From Desulfuromonas sp. SDB (GTDB lineage Bacteria; SDB-A): 29,775 nucleotides of DNA. Within the stretch, counting starts at the first letter, position 1, and every line of letters starts with the position of its first letter. The position numbers and the translations under genes are program-made. Shown here piece after piece: positions 5,186 to 29,775 of the stretch. The notes beneath the pieces were generated by a model. The model was not told the origin of the DNA, did not search any database, and saw nothing but the letters and a program-made list of their open reading frames with translations. Location: contig LKUE01000293.1 in assembly GCA_001412365.1 (NCBI GenBank), positions 1-29,775 of the forward strand, in the 5' to 3' direction.

Positions 5186-5755
5186 TTAAAAATATTCCGG
5201 ATAAGTATTAATTTCCAGCCTCCAAACCTCATTTTCCAAAATAAAATGATAATTTTCCAGGCTGTCTGAATGTAATACGGTCACTGTGGATTGATTTTCA
5301 TTTAAACTTTGTCTTACAAATTGGTAAGGTTTGTCAAAATCAATAAAAAAGAAAGGTGCTTGTTTTATTATAAATTCCAGTAGAAATTTCAACCGTTCCC
5401 GGGGAGACAGCATCATCAGGGAGTCAATATCCGCCTGCATTAAACAGTAAAGCGAGTCAAGGGCTAAGTGGTAGTAGTGATTGTTTTTCTGGAGAAAAAC
5501 CATGGTTGAGTCAAATTCCGCCAGCAAATAATTTACTGAATTATCTGAAAGGTAATAGACAACTTGATCGGTATTTTTTTGATTAAGGGCAACAATTAAA
5601 TTATCAAAATTTGATCGGGGAGTGTTAAGTTTATGCGAACAGGAAACAAGTTGTACTAAAAATAATAAAACAAAAAAAATAAAAAAAGGCAGATAAAATT
5701 TTATCTGCCTTTGTACAAGAAATTTTTCAATTAAAAAGCAATGTCTATTTTCCAA
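5186..5755 (-). CDS. DUF4878-like lipoprotein, divergent paralogue of the upstream gene
   Basis: A 189-residue leftward frame has an N-terminal hydrophobic stretch (about residues 20-36) ending in LVQLVSCSHK, a lipobox with the acylated Cys at 39. It is a paralogue of the protein at 5731-6210: SDNSVNYL matches SDGTVENM, LSPRERLKFLLE matches MEPRERLATILE, and FILENEVWRLEIN matches LIKENGAWKIDI. The only standard start in frame is ATG at 5755, inside the last codons of the upstream gene, giving a 25-bp overlap. An intrinsic terminator (5685-5712) lies between this start and the lipobox, so most transcripts should end before the gene is reached. Expression may therefore be low or depend on readthrough. 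The start is uncertain; reality of the gene is supported by the paralogy. Confidence 0.6.
   Translation of the reverse strand: MENRHCFLIEKFLVQRQIKFYLPFFIFFVLLFLVQLVSCSHKLNTPRSNFDNLIVALNQKNTDQVVYYLSDNSVNYLLAEFDSTMVFLQKNNHYYHLALDSLYCLMQADIDSLMMLSPRERLKFLLEFIIKQAPFFFIDFDKPYQFVRQSLNENQSTVTVLHSDSLENYHFILENEVWRLEINTYPEYF
5670..5712 (-). terminator. Intrinsic terminator inside the second lipoprotein's coding start
   Basis: A perfect 28-bp palindrome occupies 5685-5712 (AAAGGCAGATAAAA and its complement). Read leftward, it is followed directly by a T-rich run interrupted by one A at 5680, which is the standard intrinsic terminator layout. No T run follows it on the plus strand, so it acts leftward. 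It falls 18 bp beyond the stop of the lipoprotein at 5731-6210 and within codons 15-24 of the following lipoprotein frame. Confidence 0.8.
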
Positions 5756-6210
5756 GCGCCGTTTTCTTTAATTAAAGTGATTTCTTCTTCTTCTCCGTCA
5801 CCGGTTTTAATAGTTACCACTGCTTCATCTCCATCAATTTCTTCGGATACTATTTCAAATTCACCCATTTCGCCAAACATATCTTCTTCTCCGGTGTTTT
5901 CTAAAATAGTGGCCAGTCTTTCTCTGGGTTCCATTCCTTTTAATTCATCAATGGATATTCCAAGTTCTTTTTCCATCTCAGCAGCGGCATCGGGATCTTC
6001 TGCAGCCATTTCAATGAACATATCGAACATTGCGGACATATTCTCTACGGTGCCGTCGGACATGTAGTCAACTGCTTTTTTGACATCGCCGTCTTTGATC
6101 GCCTGGGCAAAACCTTCTACTGCTGCGGAAGGACTACTTGCTCCACCACCACTGCAAGCGGATAAAATAAATACTACAAGCACTAATAACGCAGATAGCT
6201 TTCTAATCAT
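5731..6210 (-). CDS. DUF4878-like lipoprotein, acidic
   Basis: This 159-residue protein has a clear lipoprotein signal: MIRKLSALLVLVVFILSAC, with the acylated Cys at 19 followed by a Gly/Ser linker. The rest resembles the DUF4878/NTF2-like lipoproteins: SAAVEGFAQAIKDGDVKKA is the usual first helix pair and ENGAWKIDIAF the usual last strand. It is strongly acidic, with many Glu and Asp residues. The start is well supported by AAGGAGGA about 8 bases before the ATG, and a good leftward promoter lies at 6257-6285. It is the first of two leftward paralogues and is followed immediately by a strong terminator. Function is unknown; proteins of this kind are thought to be small outer-membrane or periplasmic lipoproteins. 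Confidence 0.8.
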   Translation of the reverse strand: MIRKLSALLVLVVFILSACSGGGASSPSAAVEGFAQAIKDGDVKKAVDYMSDGTVENMSAMFDMFIEMAAEDPDAAAEMEKELGISIDELKGMEPRERLATILENTGEEDMFGEMGEFEIVSEEIDGDEAVVTIKTGDGEEEEITLIKENGAWKIDIAF

Positions 6211-17175: not shown

Positions 17176-18612
17176 ATGCCTGAAAAACTGATATTTGAAC
17201 TACCTGATGGCGAAGAGAACTCTTATTTTTGTAAAGTGGATGGAAATCCACAGGATTATATTTCCCCTCAATTTATCCGCAATACCCCCCCCCTTATACC
17301 AAATGTGGGGGAATCAGGGGTGGTCAGACATTTTATAAATCTTTCCACCTTAAACTACCATGTTGATAAGAATTTATATCCTCTGGGCTCCTGTACCATG
17401 AAGTACAACCCTAAAGTAAATGAAACTATTGCCAGTGATCCCAGCTTTACCCAGTTACATCCTGACCAGCCAACTTCCAGCGCTCAGGGGGCGATGAGAA
17501 TAATGGGTGAACTTCAGCAGATGCTGGGTGAATTAACTGGATTTACTGCAGTTAGCCTTCAGCCGGTGGCGGGAGCACACAGTGAATTAACCGGAATATT
17601 GATGTTCAGGAAATATCACCAAAACCAAGGAATTCCCCGGTCAAAAATATTGGTCCCCGATTCCGCCCATGGCACCAATCCAGCCAGCGGAGCTTTAGCC
17701 GGTTACACCATTGTAAAAGTTAAATCCAATGATCAGGGAACTATTGATCCGGAAGCTGTTGAAAAGTTAATGGATGAGGATAGTGCAGGAATCATGATAA
17801 CCAATCCTAACACCCTGGGTCTTTATGAACCTAAATTGCCGGAGATTTGCAGGATTATTCACCACCAGGGAGGATTGGTTTACATGGACGGGGCAAATCT
17901 TAATGCTCTGTTGGGGATGGTTAAACCTGGAGAATTAGGAGTGGATATTCTTCATTTTAATCTTCATAAAACTTTTTCCACTCCCCATGGAGGTGGAGGA
18001 CCGGGAGGAGGGGGAGTGGCGGTAACCGAACAGCTTAAATCCTATCTTCCCGTCCCTGTAATTTATCGGGATGATTTTGAATGGAAATTCAACTATGAAT
18101 TGAAAAACAGCATTGGACCGGTACACAGCTATTTTGGAAATTTCCAGGTGATGCTTAAAGCTTATTGTTATATTTTAAGATTGGGACTTAACGGATTAAA
18201 AAGAGTGGCAGAGCAAGCCATCATCAATGCCAACTATATCCGCACCCAACTGGAGGGAATATATCACTTGCCTTATTCCCGGGTATGTATGCATGAAGTG
18301 GTTTTCTCCGGGGATATCCAGAAAAAAAGAGGAGTGAAAACTCTGGATTTGGCTAAATCCCTCTTGGATCAGGGGTATCATGCTCCTACTATTTACTTTC
18401 CCTTAATTGTCAGTGAAGCGCTGATGATTGAACCGACCGAGACTGAATCCACAGAGTCGCTGGATGGCTTTATTCAAGCAATGAAAAAGTTAGATGAATT
18501 ATCTCAGCACAATCCTGAAATATTAACTGCTTCTCCCCACAAAACTCCGGTGGGAAGACTGGATGAAGTAAAAGCAGCCCGGGAACTTAAAGTGAGGTTC
18601 AATGAGCAGTAA
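17176..18612 (+). CDS. gcvPB: Glycine dehydrogenase (decarboxylating) subunit 2
   Basis: This 478-residue protein is the C-terminal-type subunit of a split P protein, which decarboxylates glycine and passes the aminomethyl group to lipoylated GcvH. The PLP lysine is Lys265 in HFNLHKTFSTPHGGGGPGGG. Other family blocks are LYPLGSCTMKYNPK, LQPVAGAHSELTGI and DSAHGTNPASGA. The length is normal. AGAGGAGGA just before the ATG fixes the start. A run of nine C residues (17285-17293) lies in the frame near residues 37-39. The partner gcvPA and the gcvT and gcvH genes are not in the window; instead the gene opens an operon of a 151-aa unknown, a MutL-family ATPase and membrane proteins. P-protein function is secure; a link to the rest of the operon is not. 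Confidence 0.95.
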   Translation: MPEKLIFELPDGEENSYFCKVDGNPQDYISPQFIRNTPPLIPNVGESGVVRHFINLSTLNYHVDKNLYPLGSCTMKYNPKVNETIASDPSFTQLHPDQPTSSAQGAMRIMGELQQMLGELTGFTAVSLQPVAGAHSELTGILMFRKYHQNQGIPRSKILVPDSAHGTNPASGALAGYTIVKVKSNDQGTIDPEAVEKLMDEDSAGIMITNPNTLGLYEPKLPEICRIIHHQGGLVYMDGANLNALLGMVKPGELGVDILHFNLHKTFSTPHGGGGPGGGGVAVTEQLKSYLPVPVIYRDDFEWKFNYELKNSIGPVHSYFGNFQVMLKAYCYILRLGLNGLKRVAEQAIINANYIRTQLEGIYHLPYSRVCMHEVVFSGDIQKKRGVKTLDLAKSLLDQGYHAPTIYFPLIVSEALMIEPTETESTESLDGFIQAMKKLDELSQHNPEILTASPHKTPVGRLDEVKAARELKVRFNEQ

Positions 18613-19057
18613 GTGGTGGGACAATATTTTTGCTGATCCTGCGGAGGGGCTGGTAGATGCAGAAGAGCTCAATGGGCAAGAGGAAATAGAGTTAATGGAT
18701 AAGATCGCCCACCAGGTGGTAAAAAGAGAATTGACCGTACCCGCCATAATGTTTCTGGAAAGTGTAAAACCCCTTAATTTTATCGGCAGCCAAGCCATGG
18801 TGTTTTTCAATCCTCTGGTGCAGATTGTATTTCCCTCTAAAATCTACGGACAGATGCAGTTGTTTTTCGAAAAGAGGGAAAATGTGGAAAAACTTATTCA
18901 GCATATTGAAAAAGCTGATTCTGAATATGTTGATCAAAATAAAAAATTAAATTCTGATAAACCTAAACCCGATAAAACCAAGAAAAAGACTTTCTTCTGG
19001 TGGAAAAGGAGGAGCGATGAAGCCAAAGGAACAGATCAAGAACATTCTGGCCACTGA
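18602..19057 (+). CDS. Uncharacterised 151-aa protein between gcvPB and mutL
   Basis: I do not recognise a named family. The protein is soluble with no signal peptide. It begins MSSKWWDNIFADPAEGLVDA, has an acidic stretch, then a compact alpha-helical core (about 40-105) with RELTVPAIMFLESVKPLNF and GSQAMVFFNPLVQIVFPS, followed by FEKRENVEKLIQHIEKAD. The tail is Lys-rich (KPKPDKTKKKTFFWWKRR). It overlaps gcvPB by 11 bp at its start and the MutL gene by 41 bp at its end, so it is translated with both. The core of hydrophobic helices next to a basic tail could contact the inner face of the membrane; this is inference. It is most likely a soluble accessory protein of the operon. Confidence 0.75.
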   Translation: MSSKWWDNIFADPAEGLVDAEELNGQEEIELMDKIAHQVVKRELTVPAIMFLESVKPLNFIGSQAMVFFNPLVQIVFPSKIYGQMQLFFEKRENVEKLIQHIEKADSEYVDQNKKLNSDKPKPDKTKKKTFFWWKRRSDEAKGTDQEHSGH

Positions 19058-20849
19058 TTGTGGTTCTACCACCACCAAAGCCATTTTGATTCAGTATGAT
19101 CCGGAAGCGGGGAGATATCGTTTAATTGTCAGGGGAGAAGCGCCCACTACGGTGGAAGCTCCATTTGAAGATGTTACCATTGGAGTTTTAAATTCAGTGA
19201 AAGAAGTGGAGGAATTAACTCATCGGGAAATTCTTCAGCAGGACAAGATTATCAAGGAATCCAGTGAAAACCGGGGGGTGGACATCTATATTTCCACTTC
19301 TTCCGCAGGGGGAGGATTGCAGATGATGGTGGCGGGTGTGGTGATGAATATGACTGCCGAATCCGCGGAAAGGGCTGCCTTGGGAGCCGGTTCCATAGTA
19401 ATGGACGCCATTGCCACCAATGACAAGAGAATGCCCCATGAACGGATTGAGCGGATCAGGAATTTACGCCCGGATATGATCTTACTGTCCGGAGGTATTG
19501 ACGGAGGAACGATCAAACATGTCACTGAATTAGCGGAAATCATCGCTGCCGCTGATCCCAAACCCCGGTTCGGCTCCACCTATAAATTACCGGTAATTTA
19601 TGCGGGGAATAAAGATGCCCGTGAACCGGTGAAGGAAAGATTGGAAGGCAAAACTGATTTATTCATTGTGGATAACCTTCGACCGGTATTGGAAAGAGAA
19701 AACCTCCAGCCAGCCCGGGACAAAATCCACGATTTGTTCATGGAACATGTAATGGCTCAAGCCCCCGGATATAAGAAACTGATGTCCTGGGCGGATGTGG
19801 ATATCATGCCCACTCCGGGAGCAGTAGGACTGCTTATTGAGACCGTGGCTAAGCAGGAGGATATTGAAGTAGTGGGAGTGGACATCGGGGGAGCCACCAC
19901 TGATGTGTTCAGTGTGTTTAAAGACCGCACTGAGGAAGAGGAAAAACCGGTATTCAACCGTACCGTATCCGCTAATCTGGGAATGTCCTATTCTATTTCC
20001 AATGTGATGGCGGAAGCAGGGCTGGATAATATATTACGGTGGGTTCCCTTTACCATGGAGGAAAAAGATTTGCGCAACCGCATCCGCAATAAGATGATCA
20101 GACCTACCACCATTCCCCAGTCTCTTCAGGAGTTGAAGGTAGAACAGGCTATTGCCAGGGAAGCCCTCCGCCTGGCATTTGTCCAGCATAAACAGATGGC
20201 GGTGGGACTTAAAGGCATCCAGCAGGAGAGGACTATTGCCGATGCTTTTGAACAGGTGTCCACCGGTGAAACTCTAGTTAACCTGATGAATTTAAATATG
20301 CTCATCGGATCGGGAGGGGTGTTGTCCCATGCTCCTCGACGGGCTCAGGCGGCGTTGATGATGATTGACGCTTTTCTGCCCCAGGGGATTACCATGCTGG
20401 CGGTGGATTCAATTTTCATGATGCCCCATTTAGGGGTTCTGTCCAAAGTGCATCCCCAGGCAGCTACTGAGGTTTTTGACAATGACTGTCTGATCAGATT
20501 AGGTCACTGTATCGCTCCGGTGGAGAAGAAGAGAAGAAAAGGAGGAGAACATTGTTTCACTCTGAAAATTGAAAACAGAGACGAATTAAAAATTGCCTGG
20601 GGCGAATTGAAATTAATTCCCCTGGGAGAAGGAGAAAAGGTCAAAGCAACTATAATCCCCGAACGTCATTACGATGTAGGAGATGGATACGGAAAATCCA
20701 TAACTATCACCTTGGAAGGAGGAGTGGTAGGATTAGTGGTGGATGCCCGGGGAAGAAATCCTTTTTCTCTGCCCTCTAAACTGGAGGAAAGAATTAACAA
20801 GTTAGAACAGTGGAATAAAGCTTTAAATATTTACCCGGAGAAAGAATAA
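19017..20849 (+). CDS. MutL-family (glutamate-mutase-associated) ASKHA ATPase
   Basis: This 610-residue protein belongs to the glutamate mutase MutL family, not to DNA mismatch repair MutL. It has the actin/Hsp70-like ATPase fold: phosphate-1 loop ILATDCGSTTTKAIL (about 11-25), LLSGGIDGGTIKHV (about 157-170), and phosphate-2 loop VGVDIGGATTDVFSVF (about 285-300). The length and the Gly-rich motif GGVLSHAPRRAQAAL are typical. In clostridia such genes lie between the two subunits of B12-dependent glutamate mutase, with no proven role; relatives reactivate or chaperone radical enzymes. Here no B12 mutase subunit is nearby; instead it is coupled (TAATG) to a 375-aa soluble protein and the DUF6754 membrane genes. 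AAAAGGAGGAGCG before the ATG fixes the start. The family is secure; the role here is open. Confidence 0.85.
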   Translation: MKPKEQIKNILATDCGSTTTKAILIQYDPEAGRYRLIVRGEAPTTVEAPFEDVTIGVLNSVKEVEELTHREILQQDKIIKESSENRGVDIYISTSSAGGGLQMMVAGVVMNMTAESAERAALGAGSIVMDAIATNDKRMPHERIERIRNLRPDMILLSGGIDGGTIKHVTELAEIIAAADPKPRFGSTYKLPVIYAGNKDAREPVKERLEGKTDLFIVDNLRPVLERENLQPARDKIHDLFMEHVMAQAPGYKKLMSWADVDIMPTPGAVGLLIETVAKQEDIEVVGVDIGGATTDVFSVFKDRTEEEEKPVFNRTVSANLGMSYSISNVMAEAGLDNILRWVPFTMEEKDLRNRIRNKMIRPTTIPQSLQELKVEQAIAREALRLAFVQHKQMAVGLKGIQQERTIADAFEQVSTGETLVNLMNLNMLIGSGGVLSHAPRRAQAALMMIDAFLPQGITMLAVDSIFMMPHLGVLSKVHPQAATEVFDNDCLIRLGHCIAPVEKKRRKGGEHCFTLKIENRDELKIAWGELKLIPLGEGEKVKATIIPERHYDVGDGYGKSITITLEGGVVGLVVDARGRNPFSLPSKLEERINKLEQWNKALNIYPEKE

Positions 20850-21976
20850 TGGCACATGCATATACCCCTGGATTAAAAGTAACTGCCCGGACCGTACTCA
20901 GAAAAGAACGGAGATTGCCCTTGAAGGGAAAAGTGATGGTCAGCGAAATTGGAACTAAGGTCAAGGCAGAGCAAATTGTTGCCCGGACTGAACTTCCGGG
21001 AAATGTACTTCCTCTTAATTTAGCAGGTAAACTTGGCTGTGATGCCAGAGATGTAAAAGGAAATCTCAAAGTAAAAATTGGCGATAAAATTGCCAAACAT
21101 CAGCTGATTGCGGAAACTAAAGGTTTATTGGGATTGTTTAAATCCTCAGTCCGCTCTCCCCTTGACGGAAGTTTAGAAAGTGTTTCCGATATCACCGGAC
21201 AGGCTATCCTCAGGGAGCCGCCTCAGCCGGTGGAAACTGATGCTTACATTGAAGGGAAGGTAGTGGAAATCATCCCCGATGAAGGAGTGATCATTGAAAC
21301 TGTGTGCACCTTCATTCAGGGTATTTTCGGAATCGGGGGGGAAATCAGAGGGGAGATCTATCCGGTAGTGGAGCAACCTGATCAGGAATTGACCGTGGAA
21401 TTACTCAATGAAGACTGCCGGGATAAAATTGTTATCGGCGGTTCATTCTGTACTGCTCCGGTTTTGGAAAAAGCAGTCCAGGTAGGCGCCCGGGCGGTAG
21501 TGGTGGGAGGAATTGACGATGAAGATCTGAAAAATTTCCTGGGATACGATGTTGGGGTAGCTATTACCGGGAATGAACAGATGGGGATAACTCTGGTGGT
21601 CACCGAAGGTTTTGGCAAAATTCCCATGGCTAATAAGACCTTCCGCCTGCTCCAGGAGAAGAAAGGTTATTATGCTTCAGTCAATGGAGCCACTCAGATC
21701 AGAGCGGGGGTGATGAGACCGGAAGTGATAATTACCCTGGAGGAAGATCAAAGTATGAAAACCACCGGTTCCGCCGAAAGCGGAATGATGGAAGTAGGCA
21801 CTCCGGTCAGAATAATCCGGGAGCCTTATTTTGGGGAATTGGGAAAAGTAGCCGAACTCCCCCCCCATCCCATGAAAATTGAAACCGAAGCCAAGACCAG
21901 GGTGGTTAAGGTGAAATTAGATGATGGAAAAGAAGTATTATTGCCTCGGGCAAATGTTGAATTAATTGAGGAGTAG
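20849..21976 (+). CDS. Soluble protein with lipoyl-like barrel repeats and KOW-like end, unknown function
   Basis: This 375-residue protein has no signal peptide or membrane helix. Two stretches look like half-barrels of the biotinyl-lipoyl/barrel-sandwich type: VSEIGTKVKAEQIVARTELP (about 31-50) and VKIGDKIAKHQLIAET with VRSPLDGSLESVSDITG (about 75-117). There is no lipoyl or biotin lysine motif, so these are structural barrels as in RNA polymerase or RnfC-like proteins. Residues 195-296 look alpha/beta (VVVGGIDDEDLKNFLG, ITLVVTEGFGKIPM, GATQIRAGVMRPEVII). Residues 315-340 read as a KOW-like strand pair, VGTPVRIIREPYFGELGKVA. The start overlaps the MutL stop (TAATG) and the stop lies 3 bp before the DUF6754 gene. 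I infer a cytoplasmic partner of the MutL ATPase and the membrane module; its activity is unknown. Confidence 0.7.
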   Translation: MAHAYTPGLKVTARTVLRKERRLPLKGKVMVSEIGTKVKAEQIVARTELPGNVLPLNLAGKLGCDARDVKGNLKVKIGDKIAKHQLIAETKGLLGLFKSSVRSPLDGSLESVSDITGQAILREPPQPVETDAYIEGKVVEIIPDEGVIIETVCTFIQGIFGIGGEIRGEIYPVVEQPDQELTVELLNEDCRDKIVIGGSFCTAPVLEKAVQVGARAVVVGGIDDEDLKNFLGYDVGVAITGNEQMGITLVVTEGFGKIPMANKTFRLLQEKKGYYASVNGATQIRAGVMRPEVIITLEEDQSMKTTGSAESGMMEVGTPVRIIREPYFGELGKVAELPPHPMKIETEAKTRVVKVKLDDGKEVLLPRANVELIEE

Positions 21977-21979
21977 CCA

Positions 21980-23137
21980 ATGAAGTTTTTAACTCTTTTT
22001 GGAATTTTATTTCTGATAATCCAGGGAGGATCACTTTACTCTGAAATAGTGGTAGAAGATGTCCCCAATGATGCCGGAGAAGCGTTGATGATTACCTGGG
22101 ATCTCCCTGATGATGTCGGTAATATTTCGATGTATAGAATATACCGGCTTGACCCTGGAGCAGAAGATTACATTCTGGTGGGGAAAGTTGAAAATCCCAA
22201 TGTCAATGTCTTTGTTGACCATGATCCCCGCTATCCCCTCCATGCCGGAACAGAATTTGTCTATAAAATAGTGCCGGTAGATTTTAGCCAGAATGAAGTG
22301 GAATCTTTGGGAACTTCCCTGGCAGTTTCCCCGGTAGCCCAGTTGTTTAATTTCAACAAAGTAAATTCCTTAATTGCTACTCTATTTGTATTTGCTGCCT
22401 TAATTTTCTTTTTGAATTATGCTAAAACCGGCAAGGGATTATTTATCCGAAAAATTGCAGGTTTAGATGCTTTGGATGAGGCGGTGGGAAGAGCTACGGA
22501 AATGGGTAAACCGGTTCTCTACGTTCCCGGTTTATCTACTATGTCCGATGTGGCTACTATTGCTTCTATAAACATTTTGGGTCCGGTGGCTAAAAAAGTA
22601 GCTGAATATGAAACCAAAATATTAGTTCCCAATCGGGATCCAATTGTCTACACCATAGTGCATGAGGTTGTAAAGGAATCTTACCTGGAAGCAGGACGAC
22701 CGGATGCCTTTGACACCGATCAGGTATTCTTTGTCTCTCAGCAGCAATTTGCCTTTGTAGCAGCGGTAAACGGTTTAATGATGAGGGAAAAACCAGCTAC
22801 TAACTTGTTTTTGGGAATGTTCTGGGCGGAATCACTGCTGATGGCGGAAACCGGTAACATCACCGGAGCAATTCAGATAGCGGGGACTGATTCGGTAACC
22901 CAGCTTCCCTTCTTCATCACTGCCTGTGACTACACTTTAATCGGAGAAGAACTGTATGCAGCTAGCGCTTATCTTTCCCGTGATCCCATTCTGGTAGGCA
23001 GTGTTAAAGCTCAGGATTTGGAAAAAGCTATAATTTTATTTTTAATGATAGCTTGTTCAATAATTTCACTTATTGCAGTTTTAGCATTTAATACATATGC
23101 ATTTAATCAAGTGATCAGTGCAATATTTAGTTTTTAG
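21980..23137 (+). CDS. FN3-TM-DUF6754-TM membrane protein, copy 1
   Basis: This 385-residue protein has a signal segment (1-20), an FN3-like extracytoplasmic domain (22-115: VEDVPNDAGEALMITWDLP, MYRIYRLDPG, FVYKIVPVD), a helix at 128-146, a large domain at 150-345 and a C-terminal helix at 350-372. Basic residues directly after the first helix (KTGKGLFIRK) place the large domain in the cytoplasm by the positive-inside rule. That domain begins GLDALDEAVGRATEMGKPVL and contains LEAGRPDAFDTDQVFF, the features I associate with DUF6754, a family without assigned function. It is closely matched by the gene at 25394. GAGGAG before the ATG supports the start. It follows the 375-aa protein by 3 bp. 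I infer a scaffold linking an envelope-exposed FN3 domain to cytoplasmic partners. Confidence 0.8.
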   Translation: MKFLTLFGILFLIIQGGSLYSEIVVEDVPNDAGEALMITWDLPDDVGNISMYRIYRLDPGAEDYILVGKVENPNVNVFVDHDPRYPLHAGTEFVYKIVPVDFSQNEVESLGTSLAVSPVAQLFNFNKVNSLIATLFVFAALIFFLNYAKTGKGLFIRKIAGLDALDEAVGRATEMGKPVLYVPGLSTMSDVATIASINILGPVAKKVAEYETKILVPNRDPIVYTIVHEVVKESYLEAGRPDAFDTDQVFFVSQQQFAFVAAVNGLMMREKPATNLFLGMFWAESLLMAETGNITGAIQIAGTDSVTQLPFFITACDYTLIGEELYAASAYLSRDPILVGSVKAQDLEKAIILFLMIACSIISLIAVLAFNTYAFNQVISAIFSF

Positions 23138-23164
23138 ATATAGTTATGATAAAAGGAGATTGGC

Positions 23165-23782
23165 ATGTTATTTAAACGAACTCTGCCGCTTTTAGTGGTA
23201 TTTGTCTTAGGTATTGCCATGATGATCCAGTACTTCATTCCTCATCCAATATCTCAATCCTTTAAGGAAGGTGCTGATAACTGGATAAGAATTATTGGAG
23301 CTTTTGCCATTGTGCTGGGATTAGCTAGTTTTTTCCATGTCCATACCCGGAAGATAATGAGAAAAAACAAGGACAGTATTTTCTCAGTTGTGGCTATAGT
23401 CAGTTTAATTGGTATGGCATTAATAGGTATTCTGGGCAAAGATGGTTTGGACAATTGGCTGTTTTCCAATCTATATAGTTATATAATCGTTCCTTTAGAT
23501 GCCACCATGTTTTCATTACTTTCTTTCTACATCGCCTCGGCAGCCTTTAAGGCGTTTAAAGCCAGAAATGCCATGGCTTTTGCCTTGCTAGTCACTGCAA
23601 TCATTGTTATGTTGGGGAGAGTTTCCTTTGGCAGTTTCTTAAATGGTTTGGTGGAGTGGATTATGGTTTATCCCAACACTGCAGCCCAGAGAGGAATCTT
23701 AATCGGTATCGGTTTAGGGATTATCGCCACTTCACTTAAGATTATTCTGGGTATAGAAAGATCTTATCTGGGGGGTGAATGA
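23165..23782 (+). CDS. Multi-pass membrane protein, module A position 2
   Basis: No named family is recognised. The 205-residue protein has about six membrane helices (near 7-24, 42-58, 71-89, 108-128, 137-155 and 175-193) with short loops. Landmarks are YFIPHPISQ after helix 1, HVHTRKIMRKNKDS in the first basic cytoplasmic loop, VPLDATMFSLLSFYIASAAF and YPNTAAQRGILIGIGLG. It has the same layout and several matching positions as the protein at 27950-28585 of module B (for instance IVPLDATMFS against LAIPLWTSFT). AAAGGAGA before the ATG fixes the start; its stop overlaps the next start (ATGA). It is likely a subunit of a membrane complex with its neighbours. Confidence 0.75.
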   Translation: MLFKRTLPLLVVFVLGIAMMIQYFIPHPISQSFKEGADNWIRIIGAFAIVLGLASFFHVHTRKIMRKNKDSIFSVVAIVSLIGMALIGILGKDGLDNWLFSNLYSYIIVPLDATMFSLLSFYIASAAFKAFKARNAMAFALLVTAIIVMLGRVSFGSFLNGLVEWIMVYPNTAAQRGILIGIGLGIIATSLKIILGIERSYLGGE

Positions 23783-24660
23783 TGAAATTTTGGTTATTCT
23801 TGGAACGATTGGACCGCCGTTGGATTTATCTGGCTATTGGTCTTTCTGTAATTATTCCTTTGATCTTCCCCTTTAATTCACCAACCACTATAACACCACC
23901 TACTGTAAACCTATGGAATTATATTGATAGTTTAGCGGAAACAGGAAAACCGCTGATGGTTATCACCGATTACGCTCCTTCCACTTCACCGGAGTTAGAT
24001 CCCATGTCTAGAGCTGTAATTCGTCACGCTTTAGAAAAAGATATTCCCATAATTATATATGGAGGATTATATCCTCAAGGTTTTGGCATGTCTCAACGGG
24101 TAGAACAGTATGTTATTGATGAAATGAATCATAAGAAAGTTAACGGAGATACTATTATATATGGTGAAGATTGGGTTCTACTACCTTTTATTCCTGGTGC
24201 AACTGCTGTTATAATGGGTATGGGGGATGATTTTCATCGGACTAGTCCTGAAGACGCCAGAGGAAATTCATTGAGTGATCTGGAAGTAACTAAAGACGTC
24301 CGAAGGTTGGGAGATATTGGCTTAATTGTAGATATTTCTGGAAGCTCATTGCCTAGACTGTGGTTACAATATGCAACCACCCGGTACGGAGTCCCAGTTG
24401 GAGTGGGAACTACTGCAGTCAGCGCTGCGGAATACTACGCCTTTCTGCAGACTGGGCAATTTGTGGGGATGATGGGGGGGATGAAGGGAGCAGCGGAGTA
24501 CGAACAGCTAAATGAAGATCTTATTGAAGTAAAAGTCAGGAGAGTAGCTTCAATTGCTATGGACGCCCAGAACGCAGTTCATATTTTTATAATTATAATT
24601 GTTATTCTGGGTAACATTTCCTTCTTCGTAATGAAAAAGAACAAGGCGCGGAGGTTCTGA
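23779..24660 (+). CDS. TM-alpha/beta-TM protein, module A position 3
   Basis: No named family is recognised. The 293-residue protein has a helix near 17-33, a large domain (40-265) and a C-terminal helix near 269-285 ending in KKNKARRF. Basic residues flank both helices on the terminal sides (ERLDRRW before the first), so the domain should be outside the cytoplasm. It has alternating strands and helices: GKPLMVITDYAPSTSPELD, EKDIPIIIYGGLYPQG, GDTIIYGEDWVLLPFIPGA, DIGLIVDISGSS and YGVPVGVGTTAVSAAEYY. The later Gly-rich part (GMMGGMKGAAEYEQL) is well formed. A shorter, diverged counterpart lies at 28569 (FIPGATAVIMGM against FLPGIPGSIIEIM). It overlaps its neighbours by 4 and 1 bp. Function unknown; role in a complex inferred. 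Confidence 0.75.
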   Translation: MMKFWLFLERLDRRWIYLAIGLSVIIPLIFPFNSPTTITPPTVNLWNYIDSLAETGKPLMVITDYAPSTSPELDPMSRAVIRHALEKDIPIIIYGGLYPQGFGMSQRVEQYVIDEMNHKKVNGDTIIYGEDWVLLPFIPGATAVIMGMGDDFHRTSPEDARGNSLSDLEVTKDVRRLGDIGLIVDISGSSLPRLWLQYATTRYGVPVGVGTTAVSAAEYYAFLQTGQFVGMMGGMKGAAEYEQLNEDLIEVKVRRVASIAMDAQNAVHIFIIIIVILGNISFFVMKKNKARRF

Positions 24661-25307
24661 TGAGTATTAGTACAAATCTCTGGGTATGGTTAGCCGCTTT
24701 CCTTACCCTTACCATTTATTCCTTTCTGTATAAAGATAATATAATGTACAAATTTGCCGAACATCTTTTTGTGGGAGCTTCGGTGGGCTGGTCCATTGCC
24801 ATTATTTGGCATCTCACCGTATTTCAATACATAATTGATCCAATTAAAGAGGCAGTATTGAACAAAGATGTTTTAGGATTTATTCTGGTGCTTGTTCCCA
24901 CCATAATTGGTTTGATGTACTTTTCCCGGTTCAGCCGGAGTAAAGGCTGGATTGCCCGATGGCCTATTGCGGTAACCATGGGCTATTACACCGGTATATC
25001 CATCACTCCCAGTATTGAAACCAATATATTCAAACAGGTGGAAGGAACTATCCTCACTAGTTTCAATCCGGGCAGCCTGGGTTCCTGGTGGGCGTTGCTT
25101 CTTCTGGTGGGAGTGGTGACCACTTTGTTCTATTTCTTCTTTTCGGTAAAACATGCCGGATTTGTGGGAAGAACTGCCAAAGTGGGAATCTGGTTTGTGA
25201 TGATTGCTTTTGGCGCTTCCTTCGGCTACACGGTTATGGCTCGGGTATCCCTGCTCATTGGAAGAATTCAATTTTTGCTGCACGACTGGCTGGGTATAAT
25301 AAAGTGA
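24660..25307 (+). CDS. Multi-pass membrane protein, module A position 4
   Basis: No named family is recognised. The 215-residue protein has about six membrane helices (first near 7-22, second near 34-54, last near 175-195). Landmarks are IYSFLYKDNIMYKFAEHLFV after the first helix, MYFSRFSRSKGWIARWPIAV in the central loop and FFSVKHAGFVGR near residue 161. The same landmarks recur in the truncated protein at 29336 (FSFFWKEGFLYRGAEALL and FFIVHH), so they are paralogues at the same place in two modules. CGGAGG before the ATG supports the start, which overlaps the previous stop by 1 bp. It is the last gene before the terminator at 25345, so it closes the first operon. Confidence 0.75.
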   Translation: MSISTNLWVWLAAFLTLTIYSFLYKDNIMYKFAEHLFVGASVGWSIAIIWHLTVFQYIIDPIKEAVLNKDVLGFILVLVPTIIGLMYFSRFSRSKGWIARWPIAVTMGYYTGISITPSIETNIFKQVEGTILTSFNPGSLGSWWALLLLVGVVTTLFYFFFSVKHAGFVGRTAKVGIWFVMIAFGASFGYTVMARVSLLIGRIQFLLHDWLGIIK

Positions 25308-25344
25308 TCATTTAATATGCTTGAAAATTTTGATATTTTCCTTA

Positions 25345-25380
25345 AGCGGTTAACCTTCTGGTTAACCGCTATTACTTTTT
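25345..25380 (+). terminator. Terminator-like hairpin between module A and the second DUF6754 gene
   Basis: A perfect 11-bp stem (AGCGGTTAACC at 25345-25355 and its complement at 25360-25370) with a 4-base loop TTCT is followed by ATTACTTTTT. This is a good intrinsic terminator. It lies directly ahead of the ribosome site (AGGAGA at 25384-25389) of the next gene, so it could also work as an attenuator in that gene's leader. Confidence 0.75.
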
Positions 25381-25393
25381 GCCAGGAGAAATT

Positions 25394-26560
25394 ATGGTAA
25401 AAATTATTTTGATTCTTATATCATTAGCTGTATTTATATCCTCAATATTTGCAGATCAAAGTGATATTATTGAAGTTAGAGATGTTCCCAATGATGACGG
25501 CAGCGCACTTTTGATCAACTGGGAAAAGCCGGATTATGATGTCTATGGTTATCAGATTTACAGATTAGATCAAGGAACCAATGAATACATCCAGGTGGGT
25601 GAAATAACCAATGCTGATCAAACTGAATTTATTGACTACGATCCCCGTTACCCCTTAATCCCCGGGGTTCAAGTTCAGTATAAAATAATCTCATTAGACC
25701 ACTTGGGAAATGAGTTAGAGGTTGTCGGTACATCTGAATTGTTTTCCACCCAGGCTTCATTGTTCAATTTTTATAAGGTAAATTCCTTTATTGCCACTGC
25801 ATTTATCTTTGTAGCATTGATTTTGTTTTTAAATCTTGCCAGAAAGGGAAAAGGACTGTTTATCCGTAAAATTGCCGGTTTGGATGCTCTGGATGAAGCG
25901 GTGGGAAGAGCGACCGAGATGGGCAAGCCGGTACTCTATGTCCCCGGTCTTTCCACCATGGACGATGTTGCCACTATTGCTGCTATCAACATATTAGGTC
26001 CGGTAGCTAAGAAAGTTGCCGAATATGAGACCAAGATAATTGTTCCCAACACCAATCCCATTGTCTACACCATAACCCATGAAGTGGTTAAAGAATCCTA
26101 TCTGGAAGCAGGACGACCGGATGCTTTTGACACCGACCAGGTTTATTTTATCACCGATGTTCAATTTGCCTTTGTGGCTGCAGTAAACGGGGTGATGATG
26201 AGGGAAAAACCGGCAACTAATTTATTTCTGGGGATGTTCTGGGCGGAATCTCTTTTATTGGCGGAAACTGGTAATATCACCGGAGCAATTCAAATCGCGG
26301 GAACGGATGCGGTTACTCAGCTTCCTTTCTTTATCACCGCTTGTGACTACACCTTAATTGGAGAAGAGTTGTACGCCGCCAGCGCTTATCTTTCCCGGGA
26401 TCCCATCCTGGTGGGCACTTTAAAAGCACAGGATTTGGAAAAAGCAGTTATTTTATTTTTACTGCTTGGAATTTCCCTGTTTTCTCTGATTAACTTCTAT
26501 TTTATTCATTCCAGTGCGATAAACCGAATTTTAGCATCAATCCTGATGGTAAATTCATAA
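25394..26560 (+). CDS. FN3-TM-DUF6754-TM membrane protein, copy 2
   Basis: This protein (388 residues from the ATG at 25394) has the same plan as copy 1: a signal segment ending SSIFA-D, an FN3-like domain (EVRDVPNDDGSALLINWEKP, YGYQIYRLDQG), a helix, the DUF6754 domain and a C-terminal helix. From KGKGLFIRKIAGLDALDE to the last helix it is almost the same protein as copy 1; the FN3 domain and membrane helices differ more. A TTG at 25379 would extend the frame, but it lies in the T run of the terminator, whereas AGGAGA at 25384-25389 is placed for the ATG. It stands alone between two terminators, so it may be expressed by readthrough or from a promoter in the end of the upstream gene (TATAAT at 25295-25300, poor -35). 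Confidence 0.8.
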   Translation: MVKIILILISLAVFISSIFADQSDIIEVRDVPNDDGSALLINWEKPDYDVYGYQIYRLDQGTNEYIQVGEITNADQTEFIDYDPRYPLIPGVQVQYKIISLDHLGNELEVVGTSELFSTQASLFNFYKVNSFIATAFIFVALILFLNLARKGKGLFIRKIAGLDALDEAVGRATEMGKPVLYVPGLSTMDDVATIAAINILGPVAKKVAEYETKIIVPNTNPIVYTITHEVVKESYLEAGRPDAFDTDQVYFITDVQFAFVAAVNGVMMREKPATNLFLGMFWAESLLLAETGNITGAIQIAGTDAVTQLPFFITACDYTLIGEELYAASAYLSRDPILVGTLKAQDLEKAVILFLLLGISLFSLINFYFIHSSAINRILASILMVNS

Positions 26561-26569
26561 GATTATTTG

Positions 26570-26622
26570 GGCTGAGAAACAGGACTTTTATTATCATTCT
26601 CAGCCTAAGTATTTTTTATTTT
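26570..26622 (+). terminator. Terminator after the second DUF6754 gene
   Basis: A 9-bp stem (GGCTGAGAA at 26570-26578, TTCTCAGCC at 26597-26605) encloses an 18-base loop and is followed by TAAGTATTTTTTATTTTATT. The long loop is less than ideal, but the T-rich tract and the position 10 bp after the stop codon support an intrinsic terminator. The remainder of the gap to 26690 is very AT-rich and contains TATAAT at 26677-26682 without a convincing -35. Confidence 0.65.
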
Positions 26623-26690
26623 ATTCCCACAATAGTAGTATTTATTTATAAATAGATGTTATATTATAGATGATAATATAATATATTTTT

Positions 26691-27953
26691 ATGCAAAATA
26701 TTCATCTAAATACAAACAGGATATTTAGATCAATTTTTGTTTTTATAAAATTCAAAGATTTAACCGATACTGCTGTTATCAATTTTCAGTCAGGTTATCT
26801 TTCAAATTTTAGCACTTATTTGAAGTTTTTTTATATAGCAGTACTAATTGTTCTGCCTTGCACCATTGTTGCATCATCTCCCCTTCCCCCCCGGGAAGTG
26901 ATAGCCCGGGATTTTCCCGATGACCGGGGAGGTAAAATTTTAATAACCTGGGAAAGAAGTATTACCGATTCGGTGATAAGTGAAAACAATGTATGGGGCT
27001 ACAAAGTTTACCGGTTCAATGTTGAATCCGGGGACACCTTGTTTTTAGGTTTTGTGGACCGATGGCAGGAATTGACCTTTGTGGATAACTCTGCTGCAGA
27101 CGGAACCATTTATCAGTATTTAGTTCAAACCAAGTCATCTGCGGGCAGCTCCTCTTTATACCCTTCAAATCTGATAAGTTCAAAGGCGGGATGGTTTTAC
27201 TGGGGCAGGATCCAGGTGTTGATTTTCCTTATTCTGGTTTCAGCAGTGTTCTGGTGGTTTAGAAAAGAATCCGGTGATAATAAGTACAAACATTATTACC
27301 GTAGAATTGACTGGTCTGTGGAAAAAGGAAAATCAGTCATGGTAATTTTAAATTTTCATGATTTTATAAAAAAAAATGATCTTTCCCGTACCATTGAAGA
27401 TTTGTCTGAAATAGCGGAAAGAGTAATACGGGCGGATGGTAATATAAAAGTACTTACTTCCGGGGAGATGATGAATCCGGTTTCCGAAGCAGTACGCAAA
27501 GCCTTTATGAAAATGGGAAAACTTGACCTGTTCAGGCCGTTTGCCTTGAGGAGAGTATGGTCTTGGGGACCGGCTTTTTCCGAAGAAGCCTGCCGGTTAG
27601 TACACCGTTGGAAGCCGGGAGTAATTGTGGTGATGGGAGATCCGGGAAGATGGGTGTTCCCTGCGGTAAATGCGGGAATTGATGAAAATGCTGAGATAAT
27701 TGGGTGGAATTTGAACCGGGAATTGTTGTCTGCGGGTATGATAAATGATTTAAATGAAGTGGAAATTGAGGGATTTTTTTCAAAAATCTTAAATCCTTCC
27801 CCAAAACTTAAATTCATGATTTACATCATACTAACCTTGACTATGATCAGTATGCTCTATGTTTCCCTTTATTGGCTGTTACAGGGAAATCAGGCGATAA
27901 TGTTGATTGAACAGTTCAGAGAAATTCTTACCGGATTGTTGGTGGGGCGATGA
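26691..27953 (+). CDS. FN3-TM-alpha/beta-TM protein, module B position 1 (diverged DUF6754-type)
   Basis: No named family is assigned directly. The layout equals the DUF6754 genes: a signal-like segment, an FN3-like domain (REVIARDFPDDRGGKILITW, VWGYKVYRFNVESGD, then IYQYLVQT), a helix near 181-196, a cytoplasmic alpha/beta domain and a C-terminal helix near 381-396. The domain has GKSVMVILNFHDF, RADGNIKVLTSGE, RWKPGVIVVMGDPGRWVF and NAEIIGWN, so it is a distant relative of the DUF6754 region. The start is doubtful: with ATG 26691 a 43-residue non-homologous leader comes first, whereas the in-frame TTG at 26820 begins a textbook signal peptide (MKFFYIAVLIVLPCTIVASS). Neither has a clear ribosome site. 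It overlaps the next gene by 4 bp. Confidence 0.7.
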   Translation: MQNIHLNTNRIFRSIFVFIKFKDLTDTAVINFQSGYLSNFSTYLKFFYIAVLIVLPCTIVASSPLPPREVIARDFPDDRGGKILITWERSITDSVISENNVWGYKVYRFNVESGDTLFLGFVDRWQELTFVDNSAADGTIYQYLVQTKSSAGSSSLYPSNLISSKAGWFYWGRIQVLIFLILVSAVFWWFRKESGDNKYKHYYRRIDWSVEKGKSVMVILNFHDFIKKNDLSRTIEDLSEIAERVIRADGNIKVLTSGEMMNPVSEAVRKAFMKMGKLDLFRPFALRRVWSWGPAFSEEACRLVHRWKPGVIVVMGDPGRWVFPAVNAGIDENAEIIGWNLNRELLSAGMINDLNEVEIEGFFSKILNPSPKLKFMIYIILTLTMISMLYVSLYWLLQGNQAIMLIEQFREILTGLLVGR

Positions 27954-28585
27954 GATTTATTTCCACTATTGCCATGATCATAATGATTATTGTTTTTTTT
28001 ATCGTCCCCGAAACCTGGGGAGAGAGGGCAGAACAGGAATTGCTATATGGCTTCAGAATTTTAGCGGGGTTTGTAATTTTAGGGGGCTGCTTAAGAGTAA
28101 TTTTAATTCAATTCAGCAGAAGGAAAGCAGGGGGCAATCAGAAGCTATTGGCTACAGGGATATTGATTTCAGTGGCAGTATTGGTGGCGCTTATGTTCAG
28201 TTTATCTTTGTTTAGAATAAATTTTGCTTATGTCGTTGTGGAAAACCTGGCTATTCCCCTGTGGACCTCATTTACCGCCATAGCCGGATTAAGTTTCACC
28301 ATTGCCATTATCAGATCAATAAGGATAAAAAAATGGGAAACTGTTTTCATGTCCGCAGTGGTGTTATTTTACCTGCTCAGCATGACCCTGCCTGTTTTTA
28401 TAACTCAACTTCATCCGGTTAACCGGTCAACTTTGTCCGTTTTGAATATCTCCAGGGTACTGTTTAGATATATATTTGCAGGAACGTTAAAAGGATTTTT
28501 ATTTGCTTTTTTTCTACTAATTTTAATTGATAAATTGAGAATTTTGTTTTTGCGGGAAAAGAGAAAAGATGAATTTATGGCCTGA
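27950..28585 (+). CDS. Multi-pass membrane protein, module B position 2
   Basis: No named family is recognised. The 211-residue protein has about six membrane helices, a first helix followed by FFIVPETWGER, a basic loop FSRRKAGGNQK, then LAIPLWTSFTAIAGLSFTIA and, before the last helix, LFRYIFAGTLKGFLFAFFLL. These positions line up with the 205-residue protein at 23165 (FIPHP, basic loop, PLDATMFS, RGILIGIGLG), although overall similarity is low. It starts in the previous stop (ATGA) and overlaps the next gene by 17 bp, so it is translated with both. Its C terminus is basic (FLREKRKDEF), probably cytoplasmic. Confidence 0.7.
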   Translation: MRFISTIAMIIMIIVFFIVPETWGERAEQELLYGFRILAGFVILGGCLRVILIQFSRRKAGGNQKLLATGILISVAVLVALMFSLSLFRINFAYVVVENLAIPLWTSFTAIAGLSFTIAIIRSIRIKKWETVFMSAVVLFYLLSMTLPVFITQLHPVNRSTLSVLNISRVLFRYIFAGTLKGFLFAFFLLILIDKLRILFLREKRKDEFMA

Positions 28586-29339
28586 CCGTCAATGGAGAAT
28601 TGCCTGGGTATTAATGATGATGACTGTTTTAGGATATCTTATAGGAAAACCACTGCCTCAGTCCTACCAGCCTCTGGGCAAGGAGATTCCTACGGTTTAT
28701 GCCCACCAGGGGGAGGAAGTAATCATGGTGTTGGATTTTTCTCTGGAAACTTGGGATGAGATGTCCCCGGTGATGTTCAGTTTTCTGGAAAATTTTATCA
28801 GTAGAAGACACCAAATATATTTACTGAGTACAAACCTGGATCTTTGTATATGGCTGGAGAAAGTAGTATCAGATTTAAACAGGCAATCTTTAACTGAAGA
28901 ACAGCATGAACAAGTTTTTTTTTCAGGATTTTTACCGGGAATTCCCGGAAGCATAATTGAAATTATGAGAGATCCCTCCCTGATCACTGAAAATTTAAAC
29001 ATAAATAATCCTGAACAAAAATTGTGGATTGTCTTTTCAGATCGTTCCTGGTTTCACCAGTGGATCTTTTACGGATGGGCTAGATATCACAGCCGGATCA
29101 TATTAGTATTGCCTAATAAATGGTATCCGGAGGGATATATCTACGAAAAATCAGGACAGGTTGATGAATTATATCAAAGTTATATTCAAATTGAAGATAA
29201 ACGTCTGAACAGAAGAAAATCAGCAGTGGTTTGGTTTGTATGGGGGGTGATATTGATCAGCTTAATAAGGCTGATGAGAATACCTGTTCACAGATTTAAA
29301 CTCAGACAATTTAAACAAACTCATAAAAAATTCAGATGA
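28569..29339 (+). CDS. TM-alpha/beta-TM protein, module B position 3
   Basis: No named family is recognised. The 256-residue protein has a helix near 10-25, a domain (30-220) and a C-terminal helix near 221-236 followed by a strongly basic tail (RFKLRQFKQTHKKFR), so the domain should be extracytoplasmic. The domain reads EEVIMVLDFSLETWDEMSPV, RRHQIYLLSTNLD, QVFFSGFLPGIPGSIIEIM and KLWIVFSDRSW. The order and spacing of these strands match the 293-residue protein at 23779 (GKPLMVITDY, KDIPIIIYGG, GEDWVLLPFIPGATAVIMGM). It is shorter and lacks that protein's Gly-rich C-terminal part. The stop overlaps the next start by 4 bp (ATGA). Confidence 0.7.
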   Translation: MNLWPDRQWRIAWVLMMMTVLGYLIGKPLPQSYQPLGKEIPTVYAHQGEEVIMVLDFSLETWDEMSPVMFSFLENFISRRHQIYLLSTNLDLCIWLEKVVSDLNRQSLTEEQHEQVFFSGFLPGIPGSIIEIMRDPSLITENLNINNPEQKLWIVFSDRSWFHQWIFYGWARYHSRIILVLPNKWYPEGYIYEKSGQVDELYQSYIQIEDKRLNRRKSAVVWFVWGVILISLIRLMRIPVHRFKLRQFKQTHKKFR

Positions 29340-29775
29340 TCAGTTACTTAATACAATTTAGCTTAATTATGGTGGTGTTCAGTTTTTTCTGGAAAGAGGG
29401 ATTTTTATACCGGGGAGCAGAAGCTTTATTAATTGCAGTAGTGATTTCCCTGCTGATTTACTCCAGTTATTTTTATTTTCTACTGCCCCAAATCAACATA
29501 GCAAGTTCCAGCCCCTTTCGGTTTATATGGTTTGGTTTAGGTCTGATGATTTTAGTTGGAGAAATGCCCAGGTTCAATAAAATTTCATATTTTCCTATGC
29601 ATATTTTTGTTGGTTTGGGTTCAGGTATATTAATTATTGGAATTATACAGGGCTTTATGTTGCCTCAGCTTGGTAGCACTTTATTCTGGAATGTTCAGGG
29701 TAAACAGTTGATCTTGGTGTTTATTTCCCTTTTGTCCACTTTTATAATTTTGTTTTTTATTGTACATCACCGCAT
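29336..29775 (+). CDS. Multi-pass membrane protein, module B position 4, cut by the window end
   Basis: An ATG at 29336, within the previous stop (ATGA), opens a frame that stays open to the last base (146 codons). The protein is very hydrophobic with at least four helices: MISYLIQFSLIMVVFSFFWK, then a segment near 28-46, one near 60-75 and one near 88-105. KEGFLYRGAEALL matches KDNIMYKFAEHLF of the protein at 24660, and LVFISLLSTFIILFFIVHH matches its LLLVGVVTTLFYFFFSVKH. It is therefore the counterpart of the last gene of module A. The end of the gene and anything after it are outside the window. Confidence 0.7.
   Translation, partial: MISYLIQFSLIMVVFSFFWKEGFLYRGAEALLIAVVISLLIYSSYFYFLLPQINIASSSPFRFIWFGLGLMILVGEMPRFNKISYFPMHIFVGLGSGILIIGIIQGFMLPQLGSTLFWNVQGKQLILVFISLLSTFIILFFIVHHR

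Follow-up and report, generated by a model that had tools for sequence, protein, structure and literature searches.

A DUF6754 membrane module with a divergent twin belongs to a conserved gene set that includes a GlmL-like ATPase

The window analysed here, 29,775 nt long, is one complete contig of Desulfuromonas sp. SDB (LKUE01000293.1; G000:C293 in our survey) and ends in two parallel membrane modules of four genes each, A (A1–A4) and B (B1–B4). We find that module A is part of a conserved unit of at least seven genes, V, MutL, U and A1–A4, and that module B is by all appearances its old and fast-evolving twin. As the best explanation, to which we assign a probability of about 0.5, we propose that the unit encodes a seven-protein inner-membrane system in which a MutL ATPase works with U, V and A1–A4, and that in the phylum of the window this system has been duplicated or split, giving an A set that is conserved and a B set that evolves fast.

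Results

V, MutL, U and A1–A4 lie on the plus strand in a tight run, in which neighbouring genes overlap or are separated by no more than 27 bp. V (18602..19057), the first gene of the conserved set, encodes a small protein of 151 amino acids and shares 11 bp with gcvPB and 41 bp with MutL. MutL (19017..20849; 610 amino acids) is a GlmL-like ATPase of the ASKHA type with a C-terminal extension (Pfam PF13941, E = 4.9e-132), and U (20849..21976; 375 amino acids) is a soluble protein. The fourth gene, A1 (21980..23137), encodes a DUF6754 protein (PF20539, E = 6.4e-117) and is followed by A2 (23165..23782), a protein with six transmembrane (TM) segments, A3 (23779..24660), an α/β domain flanked by two TM segments, and A4 (24660..25307), a multi-TM protein with the motif SFLYKDNxxYKFAEHLFVG.

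The remainder of the contig, likewise on the plus strand, starts with A1′ (25394..26560), a second DUF6754 protein (E = 1.2e-115) that is 69% identical to A1 and is conserved at the corresponding place in G002 and G003; its open reading frame (ORF) opens at 25379, and the ATG at 25394, which has a good ribosome-binding site, is the best start. Module B then comprises B1 (26691..27953, with a start possibly at 26820), B2 (27950..28585), B3 (28569..29339) and B4 (29336..29775), the last truncated by the contig end. The initial annotation had placed the eight ORFs of the two modules correctly in position and strand, and had overlooked A1′ and V-MutL-U, the half of the operon that lies upstream. 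Its description of genes overlapping by a few bases holds for A2/A3 (4 bp), A3/A4 (1 bp), B1/B2 (4 bp), B2/B3 (17 bp) and B3/B4 (4 bp), though not for A1 and A2, which are 27 bp apart.

The association of the soluble proteins with the membrane module recurs far beyond the window. Among 241 genomes, which include relatives and are not independent although the positives span dozens of families, 59 have both U and DUF6754, none has U only, four have DUF6754 only and 178 have neither; the distance between U and a DUF6754 gene is no more than 5 kb in 29 of the 59. The four genomes with DUF6754 only include G001, where the B contig opens just ahead of B1 and the A locus may be absent from the assembly, which would explain its status. 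A set of 60 genomes (15 with DUF6754 and 45 others) was used for V, MutL, Omp85 and glutamate mutase E. V was found in 13 of these, all of them DUF6754 genomes, with homologues directly upstream of MutL (G015, G037, G006 and G036) or of A1 (G007 and G011), and MutL (PF13941) was found in 14 of the 15 DUF6754 genomes vs two of the 45 others. As a whole, the set is present in roughly one in four of the 241 sampled bacterial genomes and in no well-studied model organism, and DUF6754 was absent from all 14 well-known control genomes. Of note, three genomes (G083, G117 and G151) contain U-like stretches within ORFs of about 1000 amino acids, possibly a distant paralogue of U.

Linkage follows the same pattern. 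MutL, U and A1–A4 are adjacent in G015, G037 and G006 and appear in the other order, A1–A4-MutL-U, in G011, these being unrelated families; in G019, U alone lies near the module. Module A itself is found in the same gene order in contigs labelled WOR-3, Stahlbacteria, Hydrothermota, Latescibacterota, TA06 and Cloacimonadota, with parts in Fermentibacteria, and several contigs carry it as head-to-tail repeats of two to three copies. The four-gene unit of the initial annotation is replaced on these grounds, gene order and a near-perfect phyletic co-occurrence, by one of at least seven genes. Separately, solo DUF6754 genes without A2–A4 occur in WOR-3 genomes (L036, L038–L042 and L044), three of them beside ExbB-ExbD-TonB clusters.

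It might be argued that the place of MutL and U is in metabolism, where they would reactivate a B12-dependent mutase as GlmL does, and that their co-occurrence with A1–A4 is a phylogenetic coincidence. GlmL genes classically neighbour glutamate mutase genes, and the MutL of the window falls within the GlmL family. However, U tracks DUF6754 in 59 of 59 genomes over dozens of families, the operon linkage is seen in several unrelated families and in differing orders, and glutamate mutase E (PF06368) matched none of the 60 genomes, a result to be read with the fact that no control genome gave a match either. We consider such a coincidence very improbable.

The relationship between the two modules was assessed by hhalign comparison of family profiles, built from 42–62 sequences for the A families and from four (the window, G003, G002 and G001) for the B families. 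All four positional pairs exceeded the preset probability of 90%: A1/B1 at 99.4% (E = 1.5e-21), A2/B2 at 90.4% (E = 1.4e-6), A3/B3 at 94.3% (E = 1e-7) and A4/B4 at 97.9% (E = 3.9e-13). As none of the 16 non-matching cross-pairs exceeded 2.5% and the best value for a reversed or block-shuffled B profile was 13.4%, we accept the whole-module duplication that the initial annotation had put forward; judged from these profiles it is real and very old. Pairwise identity between counterparts is just 22–26%. The common gene order and matched architectures described earlier are borne out by this pairing, by the six-TM pattern shared by A2 and B2 and by the FN3 domain retained in B1 (E = 8e-14). The landmark residues align as well, those of A3 and B3 standing in aligned columns and S21 and E34 of A4 being kept in all B4 proteins. 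B3 also keeps D64, E72, P75, G136, W195 and Q227 (A3 numbering). Within the module, homology between A1 and A3, both of which hold an α/β domain between two TM segments, was ruled out at the sequence level (hhalign 0.6%), as was homology between A2 and A4 (2.5%).

A quick tree places B1 on a long branch, which we did not use for dating the duplication. A1 and A1′ of the window cluster together there and not with their positional counterparts, which suggests gene conversion or repeated duplication. The genome of the window also holds a further complete and unlinked A1–A4 module (L064, G000:C397), the A1 of which has 519 amino acids and an extra FN3-like stretch.

Full-length B1 is confined to the four genomes of the window's phylum, all of which have it; elsewhere the B1 profile finds A1 or chance partial matches. 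The co-occurrence of the modules that the initial annotation wished to see surveyed is accordingly one-sided, with A and B together in these four genomes, while the other DUF6754 genomes examined all have A and no B. Of the positions conserved in A, B retains roughly one in four (19–20 of 78 in B1, 6–11 of 41 in B2, 8–12 of 36 in B3 and 11–16 of 50 in B4), and between the two genera represented the B genes are 34–39% identical vs 62–81% for the genes of the A set. A separate locus in each of these four genomes encodes a divergent pair of neighbouring genes, MutL′-U′ (10720–13619 of L087 in G000:C381; L088, L089 and L090). U′ is 27–31% identical between genera vs 72% for U, and MutL′ lacks the adenosine motif and, in three of the four genomes, the phosphate-2 Asp, so that its ATPase is probably inactive. 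Ordinary metabolic genes lie alongside MutL′-U′. MutL′-U′ and B1–B4 agree in distribution and in rate of evolution, and it is from this, the genes lying apart, that we infer their partnership.

Of the seven components, six thus have fast-evolving twins in exactly the same genomes, V being the exception, and we therefore prefer two complexes in parallel, a conserved and a degenerate one, to the single heteromer of A and B subunits suggested by the initial annotation. Its proposal that the modules subfunctionalised into one heteromeric assembly draws on the single gene run that holds A and B in the window and in G003, on the presence of both in each of the phylum's four genomes and on some A3-invariant residues kept in B3. 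Yet A dispenses with B in all other DUF6754 genomes examined, MutL′-U′ provides B with candidate partners of its own, and the contigs of G001 and G002 do not hold A and B together, though assembly breakage may explain this. On balance, a heteromer appears unlikely. The duplication stands, and what was read as subfunctionalisation looks more like one conserved and one degenerate copy, the latter with most A-conserved positions replaced and with ATPase motifs lost from MutL′.

The same losses might mean that module B is a decaying copy without function. Its ORFs, gene order, FN3 domain and membrane topology are, however, intact in four genomes of two genera, and the B alignments hold many invariant positions of their own; we rate decay as very unlikely, and presume that the B set is a regulatory or specialised second complex.

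With respect to domains, A1 and A1′ are clear members of DUF6754, scoring 389.7 and 385.5 bits vs a gathering cut-off of 27 bits, of which B1 falls short (23.3 bits, 4.1e-5). A1 has a signal peptide and, at residues ~29–109, an FN3 domain that matches the profiles of solved FN3 domains in the PDB; a TM segment, a positively charged flank, the DUF6754 domain and a final TM segment follow, and because of this flank we place the DUF6754 domain in the cytoplasm. The FN3 arm varies from none detectable (G011, 258 amino acids) to about six copies (G037, 943 amino acids), and in L047 and L049 it contains charged, probably coiled-coil insertions. A3 ends positive, and by the positive-inside rule its domain is therefore placed outside. 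The AlphaFold2 model of A3 (predicted local distance difference test score, pLDDT, 90.5) predicts a Rossmann-like fold, for which the best match is the CODH/ACDS epsilon subunit (Z = 9.5; 3.0 Å over 145 residues); as the Foldseek match on its own is not significant, we claim a fold only. A4 has four clear TM segments and probably more.

The initial annotation could name no function for these membrane proteins, and nothing that we searched supplies one, DUF6754 being the sole family assigned. A2, A3, A4 and B2–B4 belong to no accepted Pfam or NCBIfam family; against PDB sequences, A2 and A4 have no relatives at E up to 1 and A3 has chance-level matches to TEAD factors only. A2 was considered as TssN of type VI secretion and rejected (17.4 bits vs a Pfam cut-off of 30.3, and a match in just one of 29 family members). 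An anti-phage role was dropped, as ten proteins of the cluster matched no PADLOC model at E up to 0.01.

The ASKHA motifs of MutL are all present (phosphate-1 DCGSTTTK, phosphate-2 DIGGATTD and adenosine IGSGGVLSH). It lies within the broader Pfam MutL family and under the cut-offs of the NCBIfam GlmL equivalogs NF040745/TIGR01319 (242 vs 475 and 178 vs 204 bits), and phmmer found no relative among PDB sequences. U bears weak resemblances to a lipoyl/RnfC_N-like barrel-sandwich at its N-terminus, to RraA in a further stretch and to KOW at its C-terminus. V has no Pfam match.

As to context, genes for Wzi-like outer-membrane barrels (PF14052) follow the module directly downstream, adjoining A4, or A3 in L050, in five loci (L043, L046, L048, L050 and L054), and two further genomes (L092 and L094) have them ~1 kb or less from U. 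ExbB/ExbD/TonB clusters occur near DUF6754 genes in several loci. This context circumstantially favours a role in the envelope; Omp85, although present in all 15 DUF6754 genomes, is as common in the others. Elsewhere in the window, two overlapping small lipoprotein-like genes, apparently paralogues of one another, lie on the minus strand (5186–6210).

Discussion

The reading proposed here builds on gene order, co-occurrence, duplication, domain architecture and the predicted fold of A3; the physical complex, its energy coupling, an envelope substrate and the biological function are what we infer from these. In such a system, cytosolic MutL would cycle ATP at the cytoplasmic face and would dock, with U and V as adaptors, onto the DUF6754 domain of A1. 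The conformational change might then be transmitted through the polytopic A2 and A4 to A3 and the FN3 arm, whose target could be a polymer or lipid of the envelope or a partner in the outer membrane. The A set would consist of V, MutL, U and A1–A4 plus A1′, and the B set of B1–B4 here and MutL′-U′ elsewhere, the two having arisen by duplication or a split long ago. With a little less confidence than in the system itself, we suggest that it represents a new class of envelope machine, powered by ATP and found widely among diderm candidate phyla, of which one phylum possesses a nearly complete degenerate pseudo-ATPase twin serving as a second, specialised or regulatory complex.

The same components could be arranged as a membrane sensor or signalling complex, in which the FN3 arm and A3 bind a ligand, DUF6754 relays the signal with U and V, and MutL acts as a chaperone or switch and not as a motor. 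This would suit the Rossmann-like A3 domain, conserved residues of which are kept in B3, the variable extracytoplasmic arm and the resemblance of U to KOW and barrel-sandwich domains. On the other hand, the set has no constant neighbour that is a sensor, a kinase or a DNA-binding partner, and two polytopic subunits exceed what a receptor usually needs, and we regard the signalling alternative as doubtful.

Several observations weigh against an ATP-driven envelope system. MutL could have a separate cytosolic role. The MutL count leans partly on paralogues, since in G001 and G002 the native MutL is truncated by, or lost at, the ends of contigs and the only matches are to the divergent MutL′, and G010 has three modules and U with no MutL match. 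Solo DUF6754 genes in WOR-3 genomes show that the domain can occur apart from the module. The neighbours of the module differ between genomes and imply no substrate consistently, and Omp85, present in 15 of 15 DUF6754 genomes, is also found in 41 of 45 others and so does not discriminate as to dependence on an outer membrane. Finally, the AlphaFold2 model of A1 is poor in its α/β half (mean pLDDT 65).

If the seven-protein system is real, it would be one of the larger membrane assemblies still to be described in uncultured diderm bacteria, occurring in roughly one quarter of the genomes surveyed and in dozens of families. It would give an orphan GlmL-like ATPase a testable role, and would amount to a natural experiment on the duplication of a complex, as a diverged twin exists for almost the entire set, including soluble partners. 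Its recognisable parts, a GlmL-like ATPase, FN3 and a Rossmann-like fold, are known; the system itself is undescribed. In the open literature (preprints and subscription papers lay outside the search) we found no paper naming DUF6754 or PF20539, open papers on GlmL in a membrane context yielded nothing relevant, and no characterised system that we searched contains the A1–A4 subunits.

Comparison with known families and assemblies serves to delimit the proposal. DUF6754, of which A1 and A1′ are members, is defined as a domain of unknown function, and its definition includes neither the four-gene module nor MutL, U and V. The closest solved fold to the soluble domain of A3, the epsilon subunit of CODH/ACDS with its Rossmann-like, DHS-like NAD/FAD-binding fold, is 12% identical to A3, which in contrast is membrane-anchored and predicted to be extracytoplasmic, and a shared fold is all that is implied. 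With the glutamate mutase accessory protein GlmL (PF13941, TIGR01319, NF040745), MutL shares the family domain and the ASKHA motifs; it differs in its sub-cut-off scores, in a C-terminal extension of ~120 amino acids and in its linkage to membrane genes. Although the membrane subunits show no homology to pilus or division proteins in Pfam or NCBIfam, the proposed layout, a cytosolic actin-fold ATPase with bitopic and polytopic inner-membrane partners, is the one common to assemblies of the PilM and FtsA type, and it is as an analogy that we draw the parallel.

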